Below, piece after piece: positions 8,333-60,820 of a DNA stretch of 64,000 nt. The stretch spans positions 1 to 64,000 of the forward strand of contig CANQDR010000008.1 of NCBI GenBank assembly GCA_947593615.1. Direction: 5' to 3'. The DNA is from an uncultured Clostridia bacterium. GTDB lineage: Bacteria; Bacillota; Clostridia; Oscillospirales; Acutalibacteraceae. Made by a program: the position numbers and the translations under genes. Position 1 is the first letter of the stretch. The number at the start of each line of letters is the position of its first letter. The notes under the pieces were generated by a model. It had not been told where the DNA came from, made no database searches, and was given only the letters and a program-made list of their open reading frames with translations.

Positions 8333-10711
8333 TTGAAGACAAAAATCACAAGTATCTTGCTTGCGTTTTCCATGTTTGCATCAAGTATTGCAGCTGGCAG
8401 CTTTGCTGCAAATGCAATTGTCTCTAACAATACTGATGTTTCAGCAGCAAGTACAACAGCAGCCTCAACAAGTACAACAGCTGTTTCGGAAAGTACAGGT
8501 CCGCAGAAAAAAATTCAAGGCAGCGCTGTTCTGCATTGCTTTAACTGGTCTTACAATTCCATTAGAGCAAATTTACAGAGTATTAAGGACGCAGGCTATA
8601 CAGCCGTACAGACCTCTCCTGTTCAGCCTCCTAAAGACTACAGTTCATCATGGACTGACGTTGGCGGTCAGTGGTGGAAGCTGTATCAGCCAATTTCAAT
8701 CTCAATTGCCAACGGCAACTCATGGCTTGGCACAAAAGCACAGTTAAAATCACTGTGTGATGCCGCAGAGAATCTGGGAATGAAAGTTATTGTTGATATT
8801 GTTGCCAACCATATGGCTAACGTCAGCGAATCAGGCGGTAACCAAATGAGCAACATTTATTATCAGGTTGATTCAAATTTAAGAAATAACTCTAATTATT
8901 GGCATATTAACTGGGACTGGGCAAATGACGATGGAAATCGGTACACAATGACAGTCGGTTCAATCGGTATGCCGGACCTTAATACAGGCAACAGTTACAT
9001 TCAGGATGCATATAAAAATCTGCTTATTGACTGCATAAACCAGGGGGTTGACGGTTTCCGCTTTGATGCGGCAAAGCACATTGAACTGCCTACAGATTCA
9101 GGAAACTCAAGCCAGTTTTGGCCGACTGTAATAAACGGCTCTCAGAGCAGTACAAGCAACGAAATTTATTATTACGGCGAAATTCTGAACGGCTGTGCCA
9201 CAAGCATTTCAAACTATACCAAATATATGAGCGTTACTGATAATTATTCAAGCGACTTAGCTTTGGTATGTGCAAATAACGGCGATGCCGCAGGTCTTGC
9301 AAACTCAAATTATTCAAAGGGTGCAGGAGCAAATAAAACCGTATTATGGGCAGAATCTCACGATACATATATGGGAGATGATGCCGGTTCTGCCGGAATT
9401 AAAAATACTTCAGGAATTTCAGATGACACAATTATTAAAACGTGGGCAATGGTAGGTTCAAGAGCCGATGCAACATCACTCTTTTTGGTACGACCCGCTG
9501 ATAAAATGGGTAGTCCAAGCTCTAATACCACTTGGAAATCAAAAGCTGTTACAGAGGTCAACAAATTCAAGAATTATTTTGACGGACAGAGCGAGTACCT
9601 TGCCTCAAGCGGCTCAATTGCTTACAATGAGCGCGGCACGGAAGGTGTTGTACTTATAAACTGCTCAGGTAAATCCACATCGGTAAATGTTCCTGCACAC
9701 AAAATGTCAGCAGGCACATATACGGATAAAATTACCGATACACAATTTAAGGTAGAAAATGGACGAATTACCGGCCTTATCGGCGATACAGGAGTTGCAG
9801 TTGTTTATAACGAGAAAGAGCCTGATCCTTCTGCTTCAATAACTCCCGATTCTACAAATTATAAAACCGATACTTTAACCCTTACTCTTAAATATGAAAA
9901 TGCAACAAGCGGACAGTATTCGATTAACAACGGTTCATATACTACCTATACGAACGGACAAACCATTACGATCGGTTCAGGTCTTCCATACGGCACAACA
10001 ACTACTGTACAAGTTAAAGCAAGTAACGGCTCGACAACATCATCACCTGTAAGCTATAAATACACAAAGGTTGACCCGTCTGCAACACAAAAAGTTTATT
10101 TTGACAATTCGTCTTACGGCTGGTCAAATGTGTATGCCTATATTTATAACGGTTCAACTCAGAATGCTGCGTGGCCGGGACAGAAAATGACATTAGATAC
10201 CGCAACAGGATATTATGTACTTGAAGTTCCAAATAATCTCAGCAATGGATATGCAATGTTCACAGAGAGCTACAGCGCTACAACACATCGTTACCCTGCT
10301 GACGGAGAAGATGGTCTGCCGCTTAACGGAAAGTCAATGATCATGCGATCCAACCATCAGTGGAACGAGTATACTGATTCCGATTTTACTATACCGACAA
10401 CTACCGAGTCTTCGACATACACGGTGAGTTTCACAAATTCTAACTACTGGAGCGGTACAATCAGCTGTTATTACTGGAAAGACGGCTCAACAGGTCCTGT
10501 TGCATGGCCCGGCAAGTCAATGACATACTCGACAGTAAATGATTACGGTCAAACAGTTTATACGATTGAAGTACCAAAAACAATCGACAGACTTATATTT
10601 ACAAATGGCAGCAGCCAGACTGTTGACATACCGTTTGACGGAACATATTTACGTTATTATGCCTTGACTACAACAGATTCACAAGGTCATTATGAGTGTG
10701 GTACTTGGTAA
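8333..10711 (+). CDS. Secreted GH13 alpha-amylase with two CBM26-like starch-binding modules
   Basis: 792 residues. A TTG start is supported by AAGGAG 10 nt upstream; the ATG at 8323 is out of frame. Signal peptide at 1-28, a Ser/Thr-rich linker (35-56), and a GH13 catalytic barrel at about 62-410 with region I DIVANH (155-160), nucleophile Asp245 in GFRFDAAKH, acid/base Glu283 in YYYGEIL and Asp344 in ESHD. A small all-beta domain (about 420-494) follows, then an Ig/chitobiase-like linker domain (497-580) and two CBM26-type modules (about 586-680 and 695-790; aromatic patterns VYAYIYNG...AWPGQKM and ISCYYWKDG...AWPGKSM). It hydrolyses alpha-1,4 glucans outside the cell. No dockerin or sorting signal is visible, so it is released or held by its modules. 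Confidence 0.95.
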   Translation: MKTKITSILLAFSMFASSIAAGSFAANAIVSNNTDVSAASTTAASTSTTAVSESTGPQKKIQGSAVLHCFNWSYNSIRANLQSIKDAGYTAVQTSPVQPPKDYSSSWTDVGGQWWKLYQPISISIANGNSWLGTKAQLKSLCDAAENLGMKVIVDIVANHMANVSESGGNQMSNIYYQVDSNLRNNSNYWHINWDWANDDGNRYTMTVGSIGMPDLNTGNSYIQDAYKNLLIDCINQGVDGFRFDAAKHIELPTDSGNSSQFWPTVINGSQSSTSNEIYYYGEILNGCATSISNYTKYMSVTDNYSSDLALVCANNGDAAGLANSNYSKGAGANKTVLWAESHDTYMGDDAGSAGIKNTSGISDDTIIKTWAMVGSRADATSLFLVRPADKMGSPSSNTTWKSKAVTEVNKFKNYFDGQSEYLASSGSIAYNERGTEGVVLINCSGKSTSVNVPAHKMSAGTYTDKITDTQFKVENGRITGLIGDTGVAVVYNEKEPDPSASITPDSTNYKTDTLTLTLKYENATSGQYSINNGSYTTYTNGQTITIGSGLPYGTTTTVQVKASNGSTTSSPVSYKYTKVDPSATQKVYFDNSSYGWSNVYAYIYNGSTQNAAWPGQKMTLDTATGYYVLEVPNNLSNGYAMFTESYSATTHRYPADGEDGLPLNGKSMIMRSNHQWNEYTDSDFTIPTTTESSTYTVSFTNSNYWSGTISCYYWKDGSTGPVAWPGKSMTYSTVNDYGQTVYTIEVPKTIDRLIFTNGSSQTVDIPFDGTYLRYYALTTTDSQGHYECGTW

Positions 10712-45928: not shown

Positions 45929-46759
45929 TTATTCTGCTCTTTCGCAAATAACGTAATATCGGTCAAAACCTCCGTTATTATTGGAAATGCATGTTATCAT
46001 TGTAAGCAAATCCTTACCGTCTTTTAAAAAAATATCCTGTGACTGATTCGGCTTAGCAACTTTTGTTTCAGCAACCTTATATTTTATATCTTTCCAATAG
46101 TTTCGTAAAATAACCTCATCACCTATTTTTAGATTTCTAAGATTATCAAAGAAAATTCTTCCAACATATCCTGTGTGTCCTGCCAATACAGTGTTTGTTT
46201 TTTCTCCGCCCAGAGGAAGCGAGGTATATGTCAGATGAGCCGCTCCATAGCTCATATTTGCGTTATTGGCACCGAGAAAAATAGGAAGCCTCATTCCGAT
46301 TGTCGGTGCGGAAACATATCCGTAAATTCCGTCAAATATGCCGTAATCCGGCAAATTAATCGACGGCTGCGTGTAGGAGTAATCATTTATAAGAAGTGAG
46401 CCTTGATTTGTTTTCAAATTTTCGTTATACTCAACACTATCCCTATAAAGTCTATCGAGATCCGCCTTAAAAAGCACCGGTATATCCGATGTTCTGTTTC
46501 CATTTGCATCAATTGGGTATCCATCTTTGTCAATTTTCCCCTGATTTACGGCTTCCTCATAGGTATCTGCTCCGATCGCTAAGTCGCTATTGCTGTTATC
46601 TACTGCATTTTCAACTTGTCTGTCAAATTTTTCTGTTTCGGAATTTGCGATCTGCGCTCCAATAAAATTAGAAATGGGCGGAAATAAAATCAGTCCAAGC
46701 CCTAAGACAAGCATTATTACTGCAATTATAATCACTATTTTTTTCCACACGCTAATCAC
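45929..46759 (-). CDS. Sortase, second of the pilus operon
   Basis: 276 residues with one N-terminal membrane helix (8-30), then about 100 residues of linker not seen in the neighbouring class C enzyme, and the sortase barrel: His in LAGHTGY, Cys in LTMITCISN and Arg in DRYYVICE. It lacks a C-terminal membrane helix. The active-site Cys context (TCISNNNGG) differs from the usual TCTPYG of pilin polymerases. It may anchor the finished pilus to the wall or cut a special substrate. Overlaps the class C gene by 8 bp. Confidence 0.88.
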   Translation of the reverse strand: MISVWKKIVIIIAVIMLVLGLGLILFPPISNFIGAQIANSETEKFDRQVENAVDNSNSDLAIGADTYEEAVNQGKIDKDGYPIDANGNRTSDIPVLFKADLDRLYRDSVEYNENLKTNQGSLLINDYSYTQPSINLPDYGIFDGIYGYVSAPTIGMRLPIFLGANNANMSYGAAHLTYTSLPLGGEKTNTVLAGHTGYVGRIFFDNLRNLKIGDEVILRNYWKDIKYKVAETKVAKPNQSQDIFLKDGKDLLTMITCISNNNGGFDRYYVICERAE

Positions 46760-47693
46760 CGCCCAGAATTTTCTGCTTGTCTGAAATACTATTCCCAGTT
46801 AATTTATTTTTATCTTGTATATCTTTTTTCTTTTTGGATTTTTTGGAAATAAAAATTATACAAAATACAACCATTCCAACAAAACTCACAATAACAAGTG
46901 CAGCAGCCCAATAAGGAATTTTATAGCCGAGAAAAAACAAGTATCCATCGCCAAAACTTGCTAAATGCGCGCCCGTTGTAACATACTGAGAATCATCATA
47001 GTCAACTCTTTTTCCTCGTACAAGCAAGCGATGTGTATTAAGGCTGTATGGAGTACAAGTCAGCAGAGTAACATGATCCTCTCCGCTGATAATTCTCAAA
47101 TCATCAGTTAGTTCGGGTAAAACCACCTTAATTTGGTCAACCTCATATTTTAAAGTACGGTCAAGCACGTGAACATAAAATTCGTCGCCGACCTTCATAT
47201 CCGTAAGATAATCAAAAAAGGTTTCACCGGGATATGCCGTATGAGCTGAGATTACCGCATGAGTGCTCGCACCGCCGATTGGCAAAGAGGTATTTTGCAA
47301 ATGTCCTGCGCCTTCTGAAAGAATTTTGCTTGTTGTACCGTGTCTTACAGGGAGATAAACATTGATTTTTGGTATGTCAATATACCCTATAAGTCCGTTA
47401 TTGTCAACATTCAAGGCATTTTCGTAATTTGCACCTATCTTCTCATAAGCCTCGTTATCAAACGGGTCGGTAATTATTACATTGTTGGTAAGACTGTTAT
47501 TATAATCTTTTGCTTTTGAAAACATTTCTAGAGTTTTATCCGATGACATCAGCTTTGTTGTCGCTGTATATTCTTCAGCCTGACTGCGGCTGGCAAGATT
47601 ATTTGCCACTGAACTGAACAGCGGATAACTCATAATGCCTATACCCGCAAGAAAAATCATTACAATGCCTAATATTGCTAATTTCCTTTTCAT
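46752..47693 (-). CDS. Class C (pilin-polymerising) sortase
   Basis: 313 residues. N-terminal helix (about 5-25), catalytic His in VISAHTAYPG, TLLTCTPYSLNTHRLLVRGKR with Cys and Arg, and a C-terminal helix (about 262-285) followed by a Lys-rich tail; this two-helix layout defines class C. A DPF-type lid segment, ITDPFDNEAYE, occurs near residue 75, as in pilin sortases. It should link SpaA-type pilins through isopeptide bonds. Confidence 0.93.
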   Translation of the reverse strand: MKRKLAILGIVMIFLAGIGIMSYPLFSSVANNLASRSQAEEYTATTKLMSSDKTLEMFSKAKDYNNSLTNNVIITDPFDNEAYEKIGANYENALNVDNNGLIGYIDIPKINVYLPVRHGTTSKILSEGAGHLQNTSLPIGGASTHAVISAHTAYPGETFFDYLTDMKVGDEFYVHVLDRTLKYEVDQIKVVLPELTDDLRIISGEDHVTLLTCTPYSLNTHRLLVRGKRVDYDDSQYVTTGAHLASFGDGYLFFLGYKIPYWAAALVIVSFVGMVVFCIIFISKKSKKKKDIQDKNKLTGNSISDKQKILGGD

Positions 47694-47908: not shown

Positions 47909-49315
47909 TTATTCAGCTGATTTCTTTCTTCTTACAATGAGGAAGAGAACACCTGCGCAAGCAATCAATGCAGCACCGCCTATTGTAAACATCATTGTGC
48001 CCATTCCGCCTGTCTCAGGAACAACAAGAAGTGTATCCGGTACTGTAACCTCTGTAACTGTTGAGCCATTAGATGTTACTGTGCCATTTTCAGAAATAAC
48101 AATTGTAAATACTGTTGCATTGAGGTTGTATCCAGCAGGAGCTGTTGTTTCTTTTAGGTAGTATGTACCTGCCTTAACACCGGTAAATGTTGCTTTACCA
48201 TCTGCACCTGTAGTCTGCTCAGCACCATTTGTTGCTACAGTTGAGCAATCTGAATTTGTATAGAGTGTGAAGCCTGCACCGGAAAGCTTAGTTTCATTGT
48301 TAGCAGCGTCAACCTTAACTACATCCAAATCAAATGTATATACAGTTACTTTATTGCCTTCGATAGTTGATTCATTACCATAGCTGTTTGTGTAAACAAG
48401 GTCAACCTCATTGGGGTTACCCTCGCCGCCGATAACAGCATCTGCGTCAACTGTTGCAGTATATACAACAACTACATTTGTGTAATCATAGAATAAATCG
48501 TCATTAAGAATTGATGAATCAAGTTCAACTGTAAAGCTATTATCATCTGTTCCAGTTTCTGCATATGTGTATTCATTATTTGCAAGAAGACGATCATTAA
48601 TGCCTGTTCCTGTAAGTCTTACAGAAGTAATTGACTTAAATGTAAGACCTGCTGACATTGTATCAACAAATTTGTAAGCCTGAGCTTTTTCGCTTTTAGA
48701 TCCTACTATAGAACCTGTAAGTGTAAAGCTGACATCATTACCGATGAACTCTGAAATTGAAGAAGCAGAAGAATAATTTGTAAACTCTTTTTTTACTGTA
48801 GGTGTGCCGTCTTCGATTTTTGTGCCTGCGTTAACAGTTACAGTATTTACCCAATTACCTTCACTGTAGTAAGGAAGTGAGAATACACTGTTCTTAACGC
48901 TCTTAACATCAGTACCTGCAGGAGTACCTGTAACCTTTACATAGTAAATACCTGCGTTAGTTACAGTTTCTGTCTGTGTTAATGCTTCACCGGAAGCATC
49001 TGATGCAAATGTATGTGTCTGAACAGCAGAACCCAATACAGAGTCGCCAAGTTTGTCACAAGCTGTAAGCAATGCTGCCGAATCAACACCATTTGTTGAT
49101 TTTGTAGTAAGAATAGTCTCTAATGAGTCATCATATCCGCTGTATTCACCGGTTGTTGTATTTAAATCAGCAACCTTGTATACAGAAAATGTGTAACCTG
49201 CTTTACCTGTAATGGTATAAGTGTAGCTTTCCGCAGCACTTGCTGAAAATGGAATCATCATAGCGAGCATCATCACAACGAGAAGTGCAGCAATAATTTC
49301 CTTTGTTGTTTTCAT
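47909..49315 (-). CDS. SpaA-type major pilin with LPxTG-like sorting signal
   Basis: 468 residues. Signal peptide (1-27, ending SASA), an N-terminal domain, a D2-type domain (about 160-335) and a C-terminal Cna-B domain with Lys in DVVKVDAANNETKLSGAGF and the E-box YYLKETTAPAGYNL, which form internal isopeptide bonds. Sorting signal VPETGG, hydrophobic helix and RRKKSAE tail. Built into a covalent pilus by the class C sortase downstream. AAAGGAG precedes the start. Confidence 0.93.
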   Translation of the reverse strand: MKTTKEIIAALLVVMMLAMMIPFSASAAESYTYTITGKAGYTFSVYKVADLNTTTGEYSGYDDSLETILTTKSTNGVDSAALLTACDKLGDSVLGSAVQTHTFASDASGEALTQTETVTNAGIYYVKVTGTPAGTDVKSVKNSVFSLPYYSEGNWVNTVTVNAGTKIEDGTPTVKKEFTNYSSASSISEFIGNDVSFTLTGSIVGSKSEKAQAYKFVDTMSAGLTFKSITSVRLTGTGINDRLLANNEYTYAETGTDDNSFTVELDSSILNDDLFYDYTNVVVVYTATVDADAVIGGEGNPNEVDLVYTNSYGNESTIEGNKVTVYTFDLDVVKVDAANNETKLSGAGFTLYTNSDCSTVATNGAEQTTGADGKATFTGVKAGTYYLKETTAPAGYNLNATVFTIVISENGTVTSNGSTVTEVTVPDTLLVVPETGGMGTMMFTIGGAALIACAGVLFLIVRRKKSAE

Positions 49316-49378: not shown

Positions 49379-52300
49379 TTAATAGCGGCGGGCATTTTGT
49401 CTTGCTCTGCGCCTTCTGCGCTGTACTCTATCGTAAGTCAAATAACTTACCGTAAGTACTGCGCCTGTACCAACAATTCCAAGCCCGATAACAAAGAATA
49501 TATTTATTCCGGAACCGCTGGTATCGGGTGTTACAGCAAGAAAGTTGTCGACATCACATTTTATGTTATATACGGGATTACCTTCATTGTTGAGAACAAA
49601 TTCATATTTTACTCCGTCAGACTCAAAATTATAATCTGTTGTACTTTGATTTTCTGCCCTTTGAGAAAGCGGAATAGTGAAGTAATACTGCGTGCTATTG
49701 ATATTATAGCCATCCTTTGCCTGAGATTCTATTATGCAATACCACTGATATGCTGAAGTGTTATTGTTTGCCTGATCAACAAAGATATCAAGGTTTTCAA
49801 ACAGAACCTTACCATTGGAATCTACAGTTTTTTCTTCAATAAGATTTGATTCGCTTACTTTGCTTCCATTACCGCTTACTTTGTACAGTTTGAACTTAAC
49901 GGAATCATTAATTGTGTTTCCGTTAGAAGCATCTTTCTTTGTAACCTCAATGGAGCCCTTATGATAGTTATTAAACACTACTTGATCAGGTGTGATCTCG
50001 TTGCTTCCTGAAACAGCGCCTGTTTTACTGTTATAATATTTTACAGATGCTGTATTTGGTGCTGCGCTGCGGTCAACAGTAACTGCTGCATAGTATTTTA
50101 CAGTATCATAAGTATAAGTGCTGTCAGAACCCGCTGTTTCGTCAATTTCATAATAATGATATTCACTACCGCTGCTTGTAATAGACATAAGCTCATCAGA
50201 TTTTATAGACGCTGCCGAAATATCCTCATATGGATAAGTGATAGCATCAAATGTAACTTTTCCGCCGTTATTTGTTTTTGTGTCAACTAAAGTACCATTA
50301 TCTGAAAGCGTGCTTCCGTTTCTTGTAAGCTCTGTAAGCGTAAAGTTAAAGCTGTTAACATCCGGGGTTTTTCCGTCAAGAAGCTTGTTCGCTTTAATTA
50401 CTACGCTTGCATCTGTTTTATCTATTTTTGTATTTGTAAATTCCGCTGTATTTGACGATGTACCAACTGTGCCTGTAATTGTTCTGTTTGAAGGCGATGT
50501 TGTGTAATCAGCGTCTGTGTCCTCTACTATCGTGTATGTAGCGCCGACAGGGATATTCTTAAATACAGCCGTTTGGTCGCCTCTGAGAGTAAATCTGCCG
50601 TTTGCTGCAGTTTTCGTCTGTGAACCAACAGCATATTCAAGATTATATGGTTTAGCGCCGTTTCCGATATCAACCGTAATTGTGAAGTTAAAGTCTTTAT
50701 CGCTGAGATGAGTTGTTCCGTTAGTATCGAGAGCTGTTTTTGAAACGCTTACATCACCGACCTGAGGAGTGTTGACAAACTTGACATTATAGTTTGTCAT
50801 CTGCAAGTCATCTACTTCATTTTTAAATAAGAAGTTAGCGCTATTGCCGGAGCTCTGAGCCTTTACAGTGTTGTTATGAACATCTGTAACAGTATAAGCT
50901 GTTGAGTACTTTAACTTACTTCCGGCTGTTGATTCCGAAACAGTCAAATAATTGCCGGTATCAGTAATGTTTGTAAAAGAAGCTTTGTCGCCGTCCTTTA
51001 TCATATATGTACCGTCAGAATTTGTTTTTCCGGAGCTCGTAGAATTATTTTTGTGTGTTAATGAATAATTCTTGCTTCCGAGAGTGGTATTTAAACTATT
51101 ATATTCTCCGTTTGAAACATTTTTAATTGTAAATTGCTCATTGTCGGAAACTGCTTCTTTAAGACCACTGTTTAAATTAGCAGTATTAACTTCTTTTTCT
51201 GTTGTAAGAAGATTATCAAGAGGTACTAAAGAAAACTCAAGAGAGATATTTGACTCAATAAGTCCGCGTTCCATACAAAACATTTTTAAGGTATGAACCG
51301 TATTGTTTGTGCTTCCGCTCATTACGCTGGCAAGAGAGTAAGCTGTGGAATTAGTTGTTACTGCTTTTTTGTTTAATCCCGTGTTGTAAGTTGTTGTATT
51401 ATTCCTAAAGTTAAGAGTACAGGAAGCATCCTTATGGTCACCGCCCAAATCAACAACAAGCTTGCCGTCAATAAAAATCCAAACGTCATCGTCACCTGTA
51501 AAGTGGAAAGTAATTGGTTTATTTGTTCCGGGAACACAACCGTCCTCGGGAACCGTAAAATTAACAGTAAGCGCCATACCAAATCCATAGTTAAGGTCAT
51601 TTCTGACGTCATTGTTTGTGTGACTTCCCTGATTATTATTAAGCGGGAAGAATCCGTAGCCGCTGTTACCCGAGTTGAACCATAGCTTGCCGTCCAAAAT
51701 TGCCAAACCTGTATTGTTGCCGCCATATTTCATTGTAAGTGAATTTGAACTTACATTATTCAGGTTATTAGTGCTTGTTCCGCGGTTTGAATTTTCAAGG
51801 TAAATTGAGTTAATCGGAGAATTGTGTGTAGATGTTGTACTTGATTTATAGCTGTATGTATATGTACTTTCATCATAATCAAAGGGAAGAACCGTGTTTA
51901 CTTTTCTGCCCAATGAATTATTTGATAAGAAATTATCATTAAAGAACGGAGCTGCTGCCGCGCCGTTGCTGTTTGTCATGAGCTGCAAGCTTCCGCCCGA
52001 ACCAAGATTTCTTGATACAACTCCCTGATATGAATATGAAAAGCTATCAGGATCAGCACATTCAGCAAGCCAGTCTGTATCATTTACATTAACTTCAGTT
52101 TTGGCATCATACCATACTGCCTTTGAGTTGTTTGCAGCTGCATCGTAGTTATACAAAGTTTTTGTATAACTGTTATAATGTGATTTACGGTCATTTTCAG
52201 TGGCATTACCCGTATTAAGGTTGCCGAAATATACAGGTTTCTTAATATTATTCGCCTGATAATAATCGCTTAAATAATTGTTAAAATTATTAAAAGGAAA

Positions 52301-52885
52301 CCAAGTGGAATCATTGCCGGCTGTTTTAACATTACCCCAAGTTGCAGTTTCTAATTCCTGGTCATCAAGATAATCATAAAGACTTATGTCCGCTAAATAT
52401 GGCATAGAGCTCAAAGAAGAATCCTTTTTTGCTTTATATTCATATGTTTTTGTTGTAATAAGGCTTCTGTCAAGCGTCTTCCAGCTGTTGCTGCTGAAAT
52501 CAAACATCTGACCGTTATGATTCTGAAAATCAAGATCTCCTGTTTGGCCTGAGTTATCTCCTTTACTGAAGATCACCTTATTTGCCTGTTTGCTGATCAT
52601 AGATTTATAAAGCTGATTGCCGACACGAATCATTTCTGTACCCGGAAATTCTCCAAAAGGCTTTTTATTACCGTTTCCGGTATCATTATTGTCCCAAGCA
52701 TAAGCATAAACCTTATTCCAATTTGAAGTGTTCTTAAAATACACCTCAACGTAACCGCCGCTTGAGCTTGTCGCGTCAACAGAAAAGATACCGATTGCAC
52801 TGACGGATATCATTATTGAAAAAGCAAGTACTAATGACATACTCTTTTTCAGTGTTATGCCAACACTTTTAAATATTTTTATCAT
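49379..52885 (-). CDS. Pilus tip adhesin with CBM26-like and fibro-slime domains
   Basis: 1168 residues. Signal peptide (about 1-38); a module at 45-135 with the CBM26 pattern (VEVYFKNTS-W--VYAYAW, FPGTEM, KVIFSKG); then a fibro-slime/PA14-like domain at about 430-560 (ITFHFTGDDDVWIFIDGKLVVDLGG, ending MERGLIESNISLEFSL). Cna-B-type and Spy0128-type isopeptide domains follow (about 700-800, 805-950, 955-1085). The end has TPDTSGSG, a membrane helix and an Arg-rich tail, a variant sorting signal. First gene of the pilus operon, so it probably forms the tip; the starch-binding reading is an inference from the shared motif with the amylase. Confidence 0.85.
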   Translation of the reverse strand: MIKIFKSVGITLKKSMSLVLAFSIMISVSAIGIFSVDATSSSGGYVEVYFKNTSNWNKVYAYAWDNNDTGNGNKKPFGEFPGTEMIRVGNQLYKSMISKQANKVIFSKGDNSGQTGDLDFQNHNGQMFDFSSNSWKTLDRSLITTKTYEYKAKKDSSLSSMPYLADISLYDYLDDQELETATWGNVKTAGNDSTWFPFNNFNNYLSDYYQANNIKKPVYFGNLNTGNATENDRKSHYNSYTKTLYNYDAAANNSKAVWYDAKTEVNVNDTDWLAECADPDSFSYSYQGVVSRNLGSGGSLQLMTNSNGAAAAPFFNDNFLSNNSLGRKVNTVLPFDYDESTYTYSYKSSTTSTHNSPINSIYLENSNRGTSTNNLNNVSSNSLTMKYGGNNTGLAILDGKLWFNSGNSGYGFFPLNNNQGSHTNNDVRNDLNYGFGMALTVNFTVPEDGCVPGTNKPITFHFTGDDDVWIFIDGKLVVDLGGDHKDASCTLNFRNNTTTYNTGLNKKAVTTNSTAYSLASVMSGSTNNTVHTLKMFCMERGLIESNISLEFSLVPLDNLLTTEKEVNTANLNSGLKEAVSDNEQFTIKNVSNGEYNSLNTTLGSKNYSLTHKNNSTSSGKTNSDGTYMIKDGDKASFTNITDTGNYLTVSESTAGSKLKYSTAYTVTDVHNNTVKAQSSGNSANFLFKNEVDDLQMTNYNVKFVNTPQVGDVSVSKTALDTNGTTHLSDKDFNFTITVDIGNGAKPYNLEYAVGSQTKTAANGRFTLRGDQTAVFKNIPVGATYTIVEDTDADYTTSPSNRTITGTVGTSSNTAEFTNTKIDKTDASVVIKANKLLDGKTPDVNSFNFTLTELTRNGSTLSDNGTLVDTKTNNGGKVTFDAITYPYEDISAASIKSDELMSITSSGSEYHYYEIDETAGSDSTYTYDTVKYYAAVTVDRSAAPNTASVKYYNSKTGAVSGSNEITPDQVVFNNYHKGSIEVTKKDASNGNTINDSVKFKLYKVSGNGSKVSESNLIEEKTVDSNGKVLFENLDIFVDQANNNTSAYQWYCIIESQAKDGYNINSTQYYFTIPLSQRAENQSTTDYNFESDGVKYEFVLNNEGNPVYNIKCDVDNFLAVTPDTSGSGINIFFVIGLGIVGTGAVLTVSYLTYDRVQRRRRRARQNARRY

Positions 52886-52937
52886 TATTTTCCACCTTCT
52901 TTTTTAAACCATATGCAGCTGTGTATAAAGCTTCCAT
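52869..52937 (-). CDS. 22-residue leader peptide overlapping the adhesin start
   Basis: A small frame (MEALYTAAYGLKKK...) with the best ribosome site in the operon (AAGGAGG, 7-nt spacer). It ends 17 bases inside the adhesin gene, in another frame. Translation of it would carry ribosomes to the adhesin start, whose own site (AAGGTGG) is weaker. It could be a coupling or regulatory leader; it might also be chance. Confidence 0.5.
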   Translation of the reverse strand: MEALYTAAYGLKKKVENNDKNI

Positions 52938-53847: not shown

Positions 53848-53873
53848 AATCTATGCGAAAGGAGGACGCACAA

Positions 53874-54701
53874 ATGTCAAATTGCAAAGTGATTGCTCTA
53901 ACCAACCAGAAAGGCGGTGTCGGTAAAACTACAACGGCGGTCAACCTTGGTGTCAGCTTGGCAAAGCAAGGCAAAACAGTATTGCTTGTCGATGCAGATG
54001 CACAGGCAAATCTCACAATGGCGTTGGGATATGCAAAACCCGATAATCTATCGAATACTCTTTCGGATATTATGCACGGCGTCATAGACGGAAAATCTGT
54101 TGATGTTCAAGGAAGTATCCTGCATACCGATGAGAGCGTTGATTTGCTTCCGTCCTGCGTGGAATTGGCAGGTATTGAAACGACCTTGATTGATACTAAA
54201 AATCGAGATAGCGTTTTGAAAACCTGTATCAGCCAAGTCAAAAAGAATTATGACTATGTGTTGATTGATTGTATGCCTGCACTTGGTATGCTGACGATTA
54301 ACGCATTGGCGGCGGCTGACAGCGTGGTTATCCCAAATCAACCGCACTACTTTTCTATTAAAGGCTTGGAACAGTTGCTACGCTCCGTGTCTATGGTCAA
54401 GCGGCAAATCAATCCCAAGTTGCGGATAGACGGTATCTTAATGACTATGGTAATGCCACGCACGAGGATTACGCAAACCGTGATTTCAACCGTGAAAAAT
54501 GCCTATGGTCGCAATATCAAGATTTTTGACACACAGATACCCCATTCTATCCGTGCGGTAGAAGCAACCGCCGAGGGTAAGAGTATTTTTGCCTATGACA
54601 AAAGCGGCAAGGTCGCCGCAGCCTATGAGCAGTTCGCAAAGGAGGTGGCAGAAATTGGCGAGAAGCAACGCACCCAAAATCGAGCTGACCGCATACGATG
54701 A
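53874..54701 (+). CDS. parA: ParA-family partition ATPase (Soj-like)
   Basis: 275 residues from the ATG at 53874 (AAAGGAGG upstream; an earlier ATG at 53853 precedes the ribosome site). Deviant Walker A LTNQKGGVGKTTTAVNLG at 9-26, LLVDADAQANLT (A'), and VLIDCMPALGMLTINAL (Walker B). Soj/ParA proteins pull plasmids or the excised circular element along the nucleoid. Overlaps parB by 47 bp. Confidence 0.95.
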   Translation: MSNCKVIALTNQKGGVGKTTTAVNLGVSLAKQGKTVLLVDADAQANLTMALGYAKPDNLSNTLSDIMHGVIDGKSVDVQGSILHTDESVDLLPSCVELAGIETTLIDTKNRDSVLKTCISQVKKNYDYVLIDCMPALGMLTINALAAADSVVIPNQPHYFSIKGLEQLLRSVSMVKRQINPKLRIDGILMTMVMPRTRITQTVISTVKNAYGRNIKIFDTQIPHSIRAVEATAEGKSIFAYDKSGKVAAAYEQFAKEVAEIGEKQRTQNRADRIR

Positions 54702-55590
54702 CCTGTTCCAGACGGACGAGAGCCGTGCAGAAGCAGCTTTAAGCAAGATAAGGGATATTCCCGTTTCTGAAATTGACGAGTTTCCAGACCACCCGTTCAA
54801 GGTTTTAATGGACGAGGATATGGAACAGCTTGTCGAAAGCATTAAGCGGAACGGTGTAATGACCCCTGCTACTGTTCGGCTCAAAGAGGACGGACGGTAC
54901 GAGCTTATCAGCGGACACAGGAGAAAAAAGGCGTGTGAGCTTGCAGGGCTTGAAACGCTGAAATGCGAAGTCAAGGAGTTAAGCCGTGATGAAGCCATTA
55001 TTATAATGGTGGAAAGCAACTTGCAAAGGTCAACCATTCTGCCGAGTGAAAAAGCCTTTGCCTACAAAATGCGGCTTGAAGCAATGAACAGACAGGGAGA
55101 AAGAAGCGATTTAACTTCGTCCCCAATGGGGACAAAGTTGCGGAGCGATGCCGAACTTGCCGAAAAGGTTGGAGAAAGCCGCAATCAAATCCAGAGGTAT
55201 ATCCGCTTGACCGAGCTTGTTCCCGAAATCCTGCAAATGGTAGATGAAAAGCAGATTGCTTTCCGTCCTGCGGTGGAAATATCCTATCTTTCCGAGGAAC
55301 AGCAATACACCCTGCTTGAAGCAATGCAGTACAGCGATGCTACTCCGTCACTTGCACAGGCTATCAAAATGAAAAAGTTTATGCAGGACGGAAAACTGAC
55401 AAACGAGGTTATCCAGTCCATTATGGAGGAAGAAAAGCCAAACCAAAAGGAAAAGCCCGCTTTCCGTGATGAAAGGATAACCAAGCTCATTCCAAAATCC
55501 GTACCCAAAGGGCAGGAATCGGACTTTGTTGTCAAGGCGTTGGAGTTTTACAACCGACACCTGCAACGACAGCGAAGCCAAGAGAGATAG
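54655..55590 (+). CDS. parB: ParB/Spo0J-family partition protein
   Basis: 311 residues from a TTG start at 54655, chosen because AAGGAGG ends 9 nt upstream and the conserved sequence LARSNAPKIELTAYDDLF begins there. N-terminal CTPase/ParB domain with HPFKVLMDEDMEQLVESIKRNGVMTPATVR and GHRRKKACELAG, MVESNLQR, then a KorB/HTH middle domain (LAEKVGESRNQIQRYIRL). Works with ParA. The start lies inside parA, so translation is coupled. Confidence 0.93.
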   Translation: MARSNAPKIELTAYDDLFQTDESRAEAALSKIRDIPVSEIDEFPDHPFKVLMDEDMEQLVESIKRNGVMTPATVRLKEDGRYELISGHRRKKACELAGLETLKCEVKELSRDEAIIIMVESNLQRSTILPSEKAFAYKMRLEAMNRQGERSDLTSSPMGTKLRSDAELAEKVGESRNQIQRYIRLTELVPEILQMVDEKQIAFRPAVEISYLSEEQQYTLLEAMQYSDATPSLAQAIKMKKFMQDGKLTNEVIQSIMEEEKPNQKEKPAFRDERITKLIPKSVPKGQESDFVVKALEFYNRHLQRQRSQER

Positions 55591-55742
55591 CCGCACACCG
55601 AGGGCGTAGTCTGCCCGTTTGTAGTGGATAGCCGTTTTTTTCGGCTTCCCCCTCTCCACACCTCTCCCCCTAACTACTGCCAAGACTATCCGAAAAAAAG
55701 AAATATATCTGCAAAACCCTGTAAACCTTGACTTTTCTACCT

Positions 55743-55771
55743 TTGATGGCGGCACGGTTTTTCCGTATAAT
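55743..55771 (+). promoter_or_regulatory. Promoter of the lipoprotein gene
   Basis: TTGATG, 17-bp spacer, TATAAT followed by GAAGC; resembles the 53507 promoter in its -10 surroundings. Confidence 0.6.
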
Positions 55772-55796
55772 GAAGCTACAAAGGAGGTCGATGACT

Positions 55797-56540
55797 ATGA
55801 GGAAACAGATGCTTGCGATAGTGTTGGTGCTGATGTTAGGTTTATGCGGCTGCTCTGACAGCCAGACGACCCAGACCAAAGAGCCGACAGAGGAAACAAC
55901 AGGAATTACGGAAACAGCAAAGGTTGAAAACACGGAAAGCCTTTTATCTTCGGAAAGTAAGCAGGAAGATACTGCCGAAGCTACCGAGGAAGCGGAAAGC
56001 CCCGAAAGCCCCGCACAGACGGCAGAGCCAGAGAAAACCAATCCGCAGACCGTGAAAAGCAATGAAAGCCCTGCTGTCACAGCTCTGCCAGAGGATAAAG
56101 GCAACCCTGCAAAGGAAACGGAAAGCGTAAAGGCAAAAAAAACGCCGCCCGCCGAAACAGAAAAGCCGCAGGAAACACAGCCGCCTATGGAAACGCCAGA
56201 GCCACAGCCTACGGCTGCACCCGAAGAAACAAATCCGAAAACCGCCTATGATTATGCCTTTGATATCGAAGCGATAAAGGCGGACTGCATCGGCATCGGT
56301 CAGTCAATGGGGCTTACTCTGGACGCTTCCCTCACGCCGAGCAACGCAACTTGGTGGAATCCTGTTACAGCATCACAGAACAATCAAGGCACAACGCTGA
56401 AGCAGAGCCTTGAAAGCTATATCAAGTTCCACACCGTGGAAAACCTCGGCTCTTACGGAATGGACGAAATCACAGATTTTAATATCTACTACGAAGCAAG
56501 AGGAAACGGAGAATACCTCATCTACTTCCTCTTTGCGTAA
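55797..56540 (+). CDS. ICE-encoded lipoprotein
   Basis: 247 residues from the ATG at 55797 (AAGGAGG 9 nt upstream). Signal peptide with lipobox LCGC (Cys about 20), then a long Glu/Thr/Pro-rich, low-complexity spacer (about 22-145) that should lift the head off the membrane, and a compact C-terminal domain (about 148-247; AYDYAFDIEAIKADCIGIGQ, ending FNIYYEARGNGEYLIYFLFA). Similar proteins are common in Tn1549-like elements; possibly surface exclusion or mating contact. The exact role is unknown. Confidence 0.85.
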   Translation: MRKQMLAIVLVLMLGLCGCSDSQTTQTKEPTEETTGITETAKVENTESLLSSESKQEDTAEATEEAESPESPAQTAEPEKTNPQTVKSNESPAVTALPEDKGNPAKETESVKAKKTPPAETEKPQETQPPMETPEPQPTAAPEETNPKTAYDYAFDIEAIKADCIGIGQSMGLTLDASLTPSNATWWNPVTASQNNQGTTLKQSLESYIKFHTVENLGSYGMDEITDFNIYYEARGNGEYLIYFLFA

Positions 56541-56614
56541 ACCCAAATACGGGCTTATCCCTCTGTTTTGAAAGCAGGGGGATTTTTTATGCCCAAAATC
56601 AAGAAAGGACGGTT

Positions 56615-59600
56615 ATGTCTATGAAAAATATTATCAAACACAAGGGCAAGCGAGTATTGTCTGCTTTCCTCTGTATGCTGATGGTGCTTGCCGCTCTGCC
56701 GATGTCCGCTTTTGCGTGGACAGGTGCGGAGGGCGTGAGCTGCACATCTTCCTTTGGAGATTTCTATGTCGGCTCTGACGGAGAGCGTTATTACAGCAAG
56801 CCCTCTTACTCTATCATTGCCTATGACAGTAATGGCAATATTTCCCTGCATTCAATCAGTGCCGGCAACGCCAAGCGAAAGTATCTGATGAATGACGGAA
56901 ACGGAACGCATCAGGTGTACTGCATTGAATCTGGCATTGATTTCAGTACAGGCAACAGCTATGTTTCCAAAAACGGAAAGAACAGCTCATATTTTCAGAA
57001 CTTGCCGACAAACGCACAGTTCGGCATTATGATGGCTTTGATGTACGGCTGGCACGAGGGAAAATCCTCTCCTGTTGCGGGAACGAACAACGATGACTAT
57101 GCTTTTGCAACACAGGTTATTTTATGGGAGTATCAGCAGCAGCTCCGCACAAGCCCGTCCGATTTGCACAGTGCAAACGGCATTGCTGCGGACACCTACC
57201 ATTATTCCCTTGCGGGCAGACCCGCCGAGAAATGCTATAACTGGATTTTGTCGCAGATGGCAGACCACTATACCATTCCGAGCTTTGCGGCAAGAAGCCA
57301 GAGCAAAGCGGACACCTACACGCTGAAATACAACCCCGATACAAAGAAATACAGCCTTACCATCACGGACACCAACAACACAATGGCGGATATGAAGTTT
57401 TCCGCAGACGGTATCAGCGTGTCCAGAAGCGGCAACCAGTACACTTTTACGAGCAGCAAGATGATTACTTCTCCCGTGACGGTATCCGCACAGAAAAATG
57501 TCAATCTTAACTGCGATGAAATGCTCATCTGGGGCAGCGTGGGCAAGCAGACAATGGCTTCTGGTGCTTCCGACCCCGTATATTTCTATTTCAAAATCGA
57601 CACCGAAACTTACGGCACGGGTCATATTAAAAAGACTTCCGAGGATGGCGTTGTTTCTGGCATCAAGTTCAATATTTCTGGAAACGGCGTGAATCAGACC
57701 GTAACCACGGGTGCGGACGGCACGGTGGATATTCAGCTTATGCCGGGCGTTTACACCGTCACGGAACAATCCATTGACAGATATGTGCCGCAGAGTGTTC
57801 AGCGAGTAACCATTGTCAGCGGTCACACCTCTACCGTGACCTTTAACAATGTCTTGAAGCGTGGCGATTTGGAGATTATCAAAAACTCCGAGGACAATCT
57901 GGTGGAGGGCGTGAAGTTCCACCTTTACGGCACTTCTTTAAGCGGCTTGCCCGTTGACGAATACGCCGTGACCGATGCAAAGGGCGTGGCGAAATTCTCC
58001 AATGTCCTTATCAGCGGCAGCACACCGTACACCGTGGAGGAAGTGGATACGGCTGTCCGCTATGTCGTTCCTGCTTCCCAGACAGCACCGATTGAGTGGG
58101 AAAAGGTAACGAGCCGCACTTTTGTGAATGTGCTGAAAAAGTTCAATGTTACCGTAACCAAGAGCGACTATGAAACAGGCACGGCACAGGGCGACGCTTC
58201 CCTTGCAGGTGCGGTTTATGGCATTTACAAGGGCGAAGAACTCATTGACACCTATACCACCGATGAAAACGGTCAGTTCACGACCAAGTATTATATCTGC
58301 GGATATGACTGGACGGTCAGAGAGATTATCCCGTCCGAGGGCTATCTGCTTGATACGACCATTCACGAGGTCGGTGCAGAGCCAGAGCTTTATACCGTGG
58401 AGCGTAACAGCACCGCAAACGATGTGAATGAGCAGGTCATTAAGGGCAATATCGCCATTATCAAGCACACCGATGACGGCGAAACCCAGATTGAAACACC
58501 CGAAACAGGAGCAGTTTTTGAGGTCTGGCTGAAATCGACAGGCAGCTATGAAGCCGCAAAGGAAACCGAGCGTGATGTCCTCACTTGCGATGAAAACGGC
58601 TTTGCCCAGACAAAGGATATGCCTTACGGCATTTACACCGTGAAGCAGACCTCTGGCTGGGAGGGGCGTGAGCTGATGAAGCCCTTTGATGTCTTTATCA
58701 GCAAGGACGGTCAGACCTACCGCTACCTTATCAACAACGCCAACTTTGAGAGCTATATCAAGATTGTCAAGAAAGATGCGGAAACGGGCAAGACCATTCC
58801 GTATGCGGGTGCAGGCTTCCAGATTTACGACCCGAATGGAAACCTTGTCACAATGACATTCACTTATCCCGAAGTGACGGAAATTGACACTTTCTACACC
58901 ACAGCGGACGGCGACCTTATCACGCCGCAGACTCTGGAATACGGTACGGGCTATTCTCTTGTTGAGGTGCAAGCCCCTTACGGCTATGTATTAAACTCCG
59001 AGCCTGTCTATTTTGATGTGGTGCAGGAGAACTCCGAGGAAGAAAGCGGCATTACCGTTATCGAGGTGGTACGCTCCAATCTGGCACAGAAAGGGACAAT
59101 CAGCGTTTCCAAATCTGGCGAGGTGTTCTACTCTGTTGCAGGCGACAAGGGCATCTACCACCCGATTTTCAAGGTGCAGGGGCTTGAGGGAGCTGTCTAT
59201 GAGATTACCGCAGCCGAGGACATTTACACTCTGGACGGAACGCTCCGTGCTTCCAAAGGCGAGGTTGTCGATACCGTTACCACAGGTGCGGACGGTATGG
59301 CAAAATCAAAGGAGCTGTATCTTGGAAAATACGAGGTCAAAGAGATTACAGCACCTTACGGAATGGTATTGAATGAGGAAACCCACTCCGTGGAGCTTGT
59401 GTACGCAGGACAGGAAGTAGCCGTTACCGAAACGGCGACAGGCTTTGTGAACGAGCGTCAGCGTGTGGAAATCGACCTTGTAAAGAGCCTTGAAACCAAC
59501 GAAGCCTACGGCGTGGGCAAAAACGGCGAAATCTTTGATGTGACCTTTGGGCTGTATGCCGCCGAGGAAATGACCGCCGCAGACGGCGAGGTTATCCCTG

Positions 59601-60820
59601 CCGACGGGCTGATGGAGATTATCTCCCTTGACGAAAACGGAAAAGGCACGGTAACAAGCGACCTTCCGATTGGCAGCTACTATGTAAAGGAGCTTGCCAC
59701 AAACTCCGCATATATTTTGAACGACCAGAAATACCCCGTTATCTTTGAGTATGCGGGACAGGACACCGCTACCGTCCACATCACAGCCAATGACGGCGAA
59801 GCTATCCCGAATGAAATCATTTACGGCTCTGTCAGCGGTAAGAAATCAGACGAGGACGGCAAGGCTCTGGGCGGTGCGGTAATCGGTATCTTCAAGACAG
59901 GCACAGAGGAATTTACAACCGAAACAGCGATTGCAACTACCACATCAGCAGATGACGGTAGTTTTTCTTTTGCCAAAGTGCCGTATGGAACTTGGGTAAT
60001 CCGTGAAATCGAAAGTCCGAAAGGCTTTGTACTCTCCGAGGAAGAAATCGCCGTAACCGTCAGTGAAGTGGACGAGGTTGTGGAAATCGAGCTTGTCAAC
60101 TACTTCATTAAGGGCAATATCGAGCTGACTAAGGTGGATAAGGACTATCCCGACAACAAGCTCTCTGGTGCAGTCTTTGAGGTGTTTGCCGATACCAACG
60201 GAAACGGCGAGTTTGACAAGGACGATGAGCTGCTTGGCGAAATGACCGAGCTTGAGGGCGGCGTTTACCAGATGAATGAGCTGAGATACGGAAAATACTT
60301 TGTTAAGGAAACGAAAGCCCCAGAGGGCTTCATTCTGGACGAAAATGTTTACCCCGTATCCATTGAGGAAAACGGCAAGACCTATGCGGTGGAGAATGAA
60401 GCGGGCAAGGGCTTTTTGAACGAAGCACAGAAAGGCTCATTAAAAATCGTCAAGACATCTTCCGACGGCAAGGTGGAGGGCTTCTCTTTCCGAGTTACGG
60501 GCGTGAACTACGACCAGACCTTTACCACCGACAAGAACGGCGAAATTCTCATTGAAAATATCCGTATTGGCGAATATACCGTATCCGAGGTAAACGACAA
60601 GGCTTCCGCAGGATATATTCTCCCTACCGACAAGCAGGCAACCGTGCAGGTCGGGGCGACTACCATCGTCCAGATGCACAACGAGCTGAGGGACACCCCG
60701 AAAACAGGCGACGACTTCAATCTGGGATTGTGGGTAAGCCTTGCGGCTGTGCTGACAGTCGGTGCAGGCGTGCTTGGCTTTATCGGCTTTAAGAACAGAA
60801 AGAAAAAGGAGGACAGATGA
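56615..60820 (+). CDS. Large thioester- and Cna-B-domain surface adhesin
   Basis: 1401 residues. Signal peptide (1-34). Thioester domain at about 55-310 with Cys103 in YCIESG and Gln167 in ATQVILWEYQ, the residues that form the reactive internal bond used for covalent attachment to host or cell surface. About nine Cna-B/SpaA repeats follow, many with E-box-like YxVKE or YTVEE endings and Lys early in the domain, giving a stiff stalk. C-terminal TPKTGD, membrane helix and Lys/Arg tail are a sortase signal. No sortase of the element lies in this window. Likely promotes cell contact for transfer or colonisation. Confidence 0.92.
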   Translation: MSMKNIIKHKGKRVLSAFLCMLMVLAALPMSAFAWTGAEGVSCTSSFGDFYVGSDGERYYSKPSYSIIAYDSNGNISLHSISAGNAKRKYLMNDGNGTHQVYCIESGIDFSTGNSYVSKNGKNSSYFQNLPTNAQFGIMMALMYGWHEGKSSPVAGTNNDDYAFATQVILWEYQQQLRTSPSDLHSANGIAADTYHYSLAGRPAEKCYNWILSQMADHYTIPSFAARSQSKADTYTLKYNPDTKKYSLTITDTNNTMADMKFSADGISVSRSGNQYTFTSSKMITSPVTVSAQKNVNLNCDEMLIWGSVGKQTMASGASDPVYFYFKIDTETYGTGHIKKTSEDGVVSGIKFNISGNGVNQTVTTGADGTVDIQLMPGVYTVTEQSIDRYVPQSVQRVTIVSGHTSTVTFNNVLKRGDLEIIKNSEDNLVEGVKFHLYGTSLSGLPVDEYAVTDAKGVAKFSNVLISGSTPYTVEEVDTAVRYVVPASQTAPIEWEKVTSRTFVNVLKKFNVTVTKSDYETGTAQGDASLAGAVYGIYKGEELIDTYTTDENGQFTTKYYICGYDWTVREIIPSEGYLLDTTIHEVGAEPELYTVERNSTANDVNEQVIKGNIAIIKHTDDGETQIETPETGAVFEVWLKSTGSYEAAKETERDVLTCDENGFAQTKDMPYGIYTVKQTSGWEGRELMKPFDVFISKDGQTYRYLINNANFESYIKIVKKDAETGKTIPYAGAGFQIYDPNGNLVTMTFTYPEVTEIDTFYTTADGDLITPQTLEYGTGYSLVEVQAPYGYVLNSEPVYFDVVQENSEEESGITVIEVVRSNLAQKGTISVSKSGEVFYSVAGDKGIYHPIFKVQGLEGAVYEITAAEDIYTLDGTLRASKGEVVDTVTTGADGMAKSKELYLGKYEVKEITAPYGMVLNEETHSVELVYAGQEVAVTETATGFVNERQRVEIDLVKSLETNEAYGVGKNGEIFDVTFGLYAAEEMTAADGEVIPADGLMEIISLDENGKGTVTSDLPIGSYYVKELATNSAYILNDQKYPVIFEYAGQDTATVHITANDGEAIPNEIIYGSVSGKKSDEDGKALGGAVIGIFKTGTEEFTTETAIATTTSADDGSFSFAKVPYGTWVIREIESPKGFVLSEEEIAVTVSEVDEVVEIELVNYFIKGNIELTKVDKDYPDNKLSGAVFEVFADTNGNGEFDKDDELLGEMTELEGGVYQMNELRYGKYFVKETKAPEGFILDENVYPVSIEENGKTYAVENEAGKGFLNEAQKGSLKIVKTSSDGKVEGFSFRVTGVNYDQTFTTDKNGEILIENIRIGEYTVSEVNDKASAGYILPTDKQATVQVGATTIVQMHNELRDTPKTGDDFNLGLWVSLAAVLTVGAGVLGFIGFKNRKKKEDR

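Follow-up and report, generated by a model that had tools for sequence, protein, structure and literature searches.

How keystone starch degraders take their first hold on resistant starch is, to our knowledge, an open question; a gene that may bear on it lies at 49379..52885 (minus strand) in the stretch of DNA analysed here (the window: 64,000 nucleotides, positions 1 to 64,000 of contig CANQDR010000008.1, GenBank assembly GCA_947593615.1). The window comes from an uncultured Clostridia bacterium which appears to be related to Ruminococcus bromii. An earlier note on this DNA had read the gene as encoding a pilus tip adhesin with a starch-binding module; that reading is now supported by a profile match, a predicted fold, retained aromatic residues and a pilus-type operon which recurs in the genus. 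We consider it rather likely that this operon encodes a sortase-built pilus which carries a starch-binding head.

The putative tip gene is an intact open reading frame (ORF) of 1168 amino acids with an ATG start codon; it and the other operon features lie on the minus strand. Its product runs from a signal-peptide-like start (by reading only) through a CBM26 module, a fibro-slime head and three stalk domains to a C-terminal sorting-like signal. The fibro-slime domain proposed in the earlier note passes TIGR02148 (47.8 bits; cut-off 45), and its core (GDDDVWIF..., 51242..51520) tentatively resembles PA14 sugar-binding domains. The stretches which had been called Cna-B domains are a DUF7601 domain (residues 711-820, 50426..50755), an FctA-like isopeptide domain (residues 830-973, 49967..50398) and a SpaA prealbumin-like domain (residues 977-1076, 49658..49957), all above their Pfam cut-offs. 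No dockerin or cohesin family was listed for the protein at E values up to 1, so that it does not present as an amylosome component. A 22-codon ORF with an AAGGAGG-type ribosome site ahead of it (about 52869-52937, minus strand) overlaps the 5' end of the tip gene, and translational coupling between the two is possible.

The CBM26 module (residues 36-145 as modelled, 52451..52780) matches the Pfam family over residues 48-119 (52529-52744; 52 bits, cut-off 28.1, E=7.9e-14) and scores 58.7 bits (E=1.2e-15) in a profile search of its own genome. The motifs from which a CBM26-type module had first been proposed are in place (VYAYAW from residue 59, FPGTEM from 80, VIFSKG from 104), and the structure prediction for which the earlier note had called gave CBM25/CBM26 beta-sandwiches as the best matches to the predicted fold. 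Nor have the aromatic binding residues been lost: the platform positions Y62, W64 and F80 (52646..52702), read from sequence columns rather than from a ligand-bound or superposed structure, are kept, the lineage of the tip having F instead of W at position 80. A protein search scored 7990 candidates, 1048 of them at E up to 1e-5, with details listed for 120; the aromatic positions are conserved in all 116 module-bearing homologues among these 120, about 100 being near-copies. The platform of Sas20d1 is Y60/W72 (PMC9112005), which would probably correspond to these tip columns.

The tip module very probably binds an alpha-glucan and, because CBM26 is a family known for starch binding, the pili are predicted to grip starch grains. 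The head could instead bind another alpha-glucan, such as glycogen or the alpha-glucan coat of host or neighbour cells, for attachment and not for feeding: the structural neighbours ranking after CBM25/26 include CBM41 alpha-glucan-binding modules, two from streptococcal proteins and one titled glycogen-degrading. However, the closest solved modules by sequence are those of R. bromii starch proteins (a profile of six modules found Amy16, Amy10 and Sas6 as its best PDB matches, and the tip module alone matched only Amy16), and its own genome is equipped for starch, as described below. We regard a glucan other than starch as improbable.

Downstream of the tip gene, 63 bases away, lies the gene for a shaft pilin (47909..49315; 468 amino acids) which is above the cut-offs for GramPos_pilinBB and SpaA. 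It has the expected shaft hallmarks: K166, which we take as the pilin-motif lysine, the E-box glutamate E389, and an LPXTG-type signal (VPETGG). Both of these residues, K176 and the PxTG signal are invariant in 18/18 genus shafts. The operon is completed by a class C sortase (46752..47693; 262.5 bits, cut-off 160), which we call SrtC1, and by a second, class C-like sortase, SrtC2 (45929..46759), which matches Pfam Sortase at 77.2 bits (cut-off 26.6) and the class C model at 144.8 bits, below the cut-off of 160. The operon of pilin and class C sortase described in the earlier note is therefore borne out, and a class C sortase beside pilins is an arrangement expected of a sortase-assembled pilus; no base pilin was seen in the gene cluster. 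Together with the window, 17 further tip-shaft pairs show that the pilus-type operon recurs in the genus, these 18 loci having been selected for a tip gene adjoining a shaft gene. Not counted among the 18 are L043, L053, L057 and L058, where no shaft adjoins a tip that bears a sorting signal (L058 also extends past the end of its contig), L060, regarded as a duplicate of the L039 record, and L061, truncated at a contig end.

Several observations weigh against a starch-holding pilus, and the first of them concern how the tip protein is held. Of the sorting signal which the earlier note had seen, a sorting-like C-terminus is present (49382..49531; TPDTSGSG followed by a hydrophobic segment and a tail rich in arginine), but no LPXTG model matched the tip protein in our profile scans, and the signal is non-canonical. 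Furthermore, L043, L053, L057 and L058 hold a matching ORF without an adjoining shaft gene. The protein could be a starch-binding surface protein outside the pilus, with TPDTSG directing its own wall or membrane anchoring, and act as a short-range adhesin beside the pilus. In keeping with this, 14/18 genus tips carry P-x-(T/A)-(S/A)-G (2/18 have PxTG and 2/18 neither), as against PxTG in 18/18 shafts. Such anchoring of CBM26-like modules is plausible because the same genome holds another CBM26-like protein (L064:3716-4882; 20.6 bits, below cut-off) whose C-terminus is anchor-like; this is likely the counterpart of an anchored Sas20d1-like R. bromii protein, and its gene adjoins an alanyl-tRNA-ligase-like ORF (ligase by reading only). 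Against anchoring outside the pilus stand the closeness of the shaft gene on the same strand, the 17 further pairs (allowing for their selection for pairing) and the pilin-like stalk domains of the tip, whose family profile matches the streptococcal pilin 6bbt in the PDB (E=0.00015). Weighing these, we think an adhesin outside the pilus unlikely, and that the protein is probably a pilus subunit.

Tip and shaft signals therefore differ within one operon. Both sortases are found in 13/18 loci, one nearer to each window sortase; no sortase was seen in the stretch taken at the other five (L040, L045, L051, L052 and L054), the shaft gene being near a contig end in L045, L051 and L052. Outside the genus, 14/20 fibro-slime loci end in an xPxTG signal and 0/20 in the genus-type signal. 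The presence of distinct shaft and tip signals with two sortases suggests, as a hypothesis, a division of labour in which each sortase would handle one of the signals.

Further counterpoints to a starch-holding pilus concern the CBM26 module itself. It exceeds the Pfam cut-off in 8/18 genus tips (the window, L039, L045, L048, L049, L054, L055 and L059; the assembly breaks the L045 tip into two ORFs, the module lying in the upstream one) and lies below it in two (L042, 24.5 bits; L056, 25.0 bits). In another 8/18 no CBM26 is seen, although the genomes concerned hold 11-27 CBM26 matches, so the module is not essential to the pili of this genus. Y62 is replaced by H in one of seven CBM26 modules from the more distant tips, and these seven are mixed at the Q114 column (Q in two). 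Stray capture of a CBM26 is conceivable, since the genus is so rich in them: each of the 17 genus genomes examined holds 11-35 CBM26 matches and 15-75 dockerins, whether or not its tip carries CBM26.

The module might then be a non-binding passenger captured from abundant amylosome-type proteins. The match between tip residues 5-138 and a CBM26-CBM26-dockerin protein from the same genome (E=2.1e-15) takes in the signal-peptide-like, secretion-type start, as if the whole front end of a dockerin protein had been taken over by the tip; in addition, besides the W-to-F change at position 80, the loop in this lineage is two to six residues longer. What speaks against a passenger is the conservation of the aromatic positions in the 116 homologues, near-copies though most are, and a tree built from 55 modules (over only 94 columns, with many forks left open; modules below 35 bits excluded and 14 of the 116 listed module-bearing proteins used) in which the tip label changes four times, at least two of these changes being forced by well-supported branches. 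In that tree the N-terminal tip group sits, with low support, among branches including modules of proteins with two N-terminal CBM26 modules, which we label ‘Doc22-like’ (dockerin checked in L063 only). We consider a non-binding passenger very improbable indeed. A CBM26 profile built here matched 0/20 of the outside-genus fibro-slime loci against 8/18 genus tips above the Pfam cut-off (Fisher p 0.0009); kinship is uncorrected in this comparison and the sample is unmatched, because the genus loci were found with the window protein and the outside loci with the fibro-slime profile (20 of 31 listed matches, 2 of the 20 scoring below its cut-off).

The distribution of the gene also tempers the case. 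When the homologue P0087 was searched in 161 genus genomes, at least nine held matches at E up to 1e-60, and at least four, the window genome included, held a match starting at the N-terminus; these are lower bounds, four candidates having been scored per genome. The tip gene is accordingly an accessory gene in the genus and, as the best identity to P0087 in that search was 63%, the R. bromii species representative seems to be without it. P0087 already has the public name ‘starch-binding protein [Ruminococcus bromii]’, so the CBM26 module itself is unsurprising, and the surprise lies in its place on a pilus-type protein. The gene does recur in another record, given that P0001 has 99% identity to the window protein over the part searched; a named genome collection gave three loci, all from uncultured Ruminococcus metagenome-assembled genomes. 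Most listed homologues are near relatives, since 103/120 share one signal type (MPSASGDG or MPSTSGDG). In the four of the 120 without a module (P0010, P0011, P0014 and P0104) the secretion-type start leads directly into the fibro-slime part. A second, weak CBM26-like stretch lies in the stalk of 8/120 (P0002, P0003, P0004, P0006, P0007, P0008, P0016 and P0033; about residues 900-1030, after a Thr/Pro-rich linker), and alignment reading places a similar sub-threshold stretch in the four without an N-terminal CBM26.

The host genome (2.2 Mb, 65 contigs, 94% complete) is well provided for starch. It holds 21 CBM26 matches, 19 above cut-off, in 16 ORFs, together with 39 dockerins, four cohesins (two above cut-off) and one fibro-slime protein. 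Ten of the 16 ORFs carry GH13, three a dockerin without GH13, one only repeats and one an anchor-like end; the last is the tip, the only one found to have pilin-type domains. At a distance from the operon, the window itself encodes a secreted-type GH13 amylase (8333..10711, plus strand) in which Pfam confirms the two CBM26 stretches reported in the earlier note. Further sortase-built structures are likely in this host, as 11 sortase matches occur in its genome, including a cluster of three on contig C27 (G000:C27:17070-20086) and sortase also on G000:C11. Near the pilus operon, at 53853-60820, ParA-like and ParB-like ORFs (by reading) adjoin the gene for a 1401-amino-acid protein in which Pfam marks a thioester domain along with ten SpaA-like stretches; this arrangement suggests a mobile element.

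We propose that the large protein is secreted and that one of the two sortases would act on its C-terminal signal, so that it would become the first subunit, at the outer end; the class C sortase would then polymerise the shaft pilin below it, which is predicted because K166, the E-box glutamate and PxTG are invariant. The CBM26 would stack an alpha-glucan chain on Y62, W64 and F80, so that the pilus would tether the cell to a starch grain close enough for its amylases to reach, and the fibro-slime domain might conceivably add a second sugar contact. More speculatively, and with some doubt, we suggest that the R. bromii genus builds starch-fishing sortase pili whose heads have repeatedly taken CBM26 from the cell's own amylosome proteins, with a second, dedicated sortase for the PxTSG-type tip signal and a long arm which brings grains to the amylosome. 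If so, a carbohydrate-binding module (CBM) on a covalent pilus would allow grains to be captured at long range and without enzymes before the amylosome acts, and two sorting signals with two sortases in one pilus operon offer a testable case.

In the available parts of the literature on CBM26 and R. bromii, pili, sortases and starch, we came across no pilus described as bearing a CBM, and a word search of the main texts of PMC5814915 and PMC9112005 did not find pili. Pilus-like structures of a starch-degrading R. bromii relative have been ascribed to type IV pili and suggested to adhere to epithelium or food particles (PMC8726730). Pilin-related proteins are among those most raised on starch in a Bifidobacterium (PMC13271388); PMC11286577 cites Duranti 2014 for a B. 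adolescentis pilus cluster that is raised on starch, and its own transcriptome section mentions a sortase-pilus cluster by name. The available parts of these two papers describe no CBM on the pilus, and a starch-holding head, if real, would supply the binding module to match their reports.

The tip module shares family and fold with the amylosome CBM26 modules of R. bromii (Amy16, Amy10, Sas6 and Doc22); however, Amy16, Amy10 and Doc22 belong to the enzymes or dockerin proteins (PMC9112005), whereas the tip is of pilin type and has no dockerin match. The Sas20d1-like R. bromii protein (tagged both RBR_02940 and RBR_09240 in PMC9112005) is starch-binding, predicted to be wall-anchored and, like the tip, without dockerin or cohesin, but is not a pilin. 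With SpaA/EbpB-type sortase pili the operon shares a class C sortase and a shaft pilin with lysine, E-box and PxTG; it differs in its CBM26 and fibro-slime tip head, its PxTSG tip signal and the lack of a visible base pilin. The fibro-slime proteins of Fibrobacter succinogenes, for which we know of no sortase, share both the name and the domain with the tip. Those proteins, reported to act in adhesion to cellulose (PMC4668043), are thought to be outer-membrane proteins with cellulose as their target, whereas the target predicted for the pilus described here is starch.
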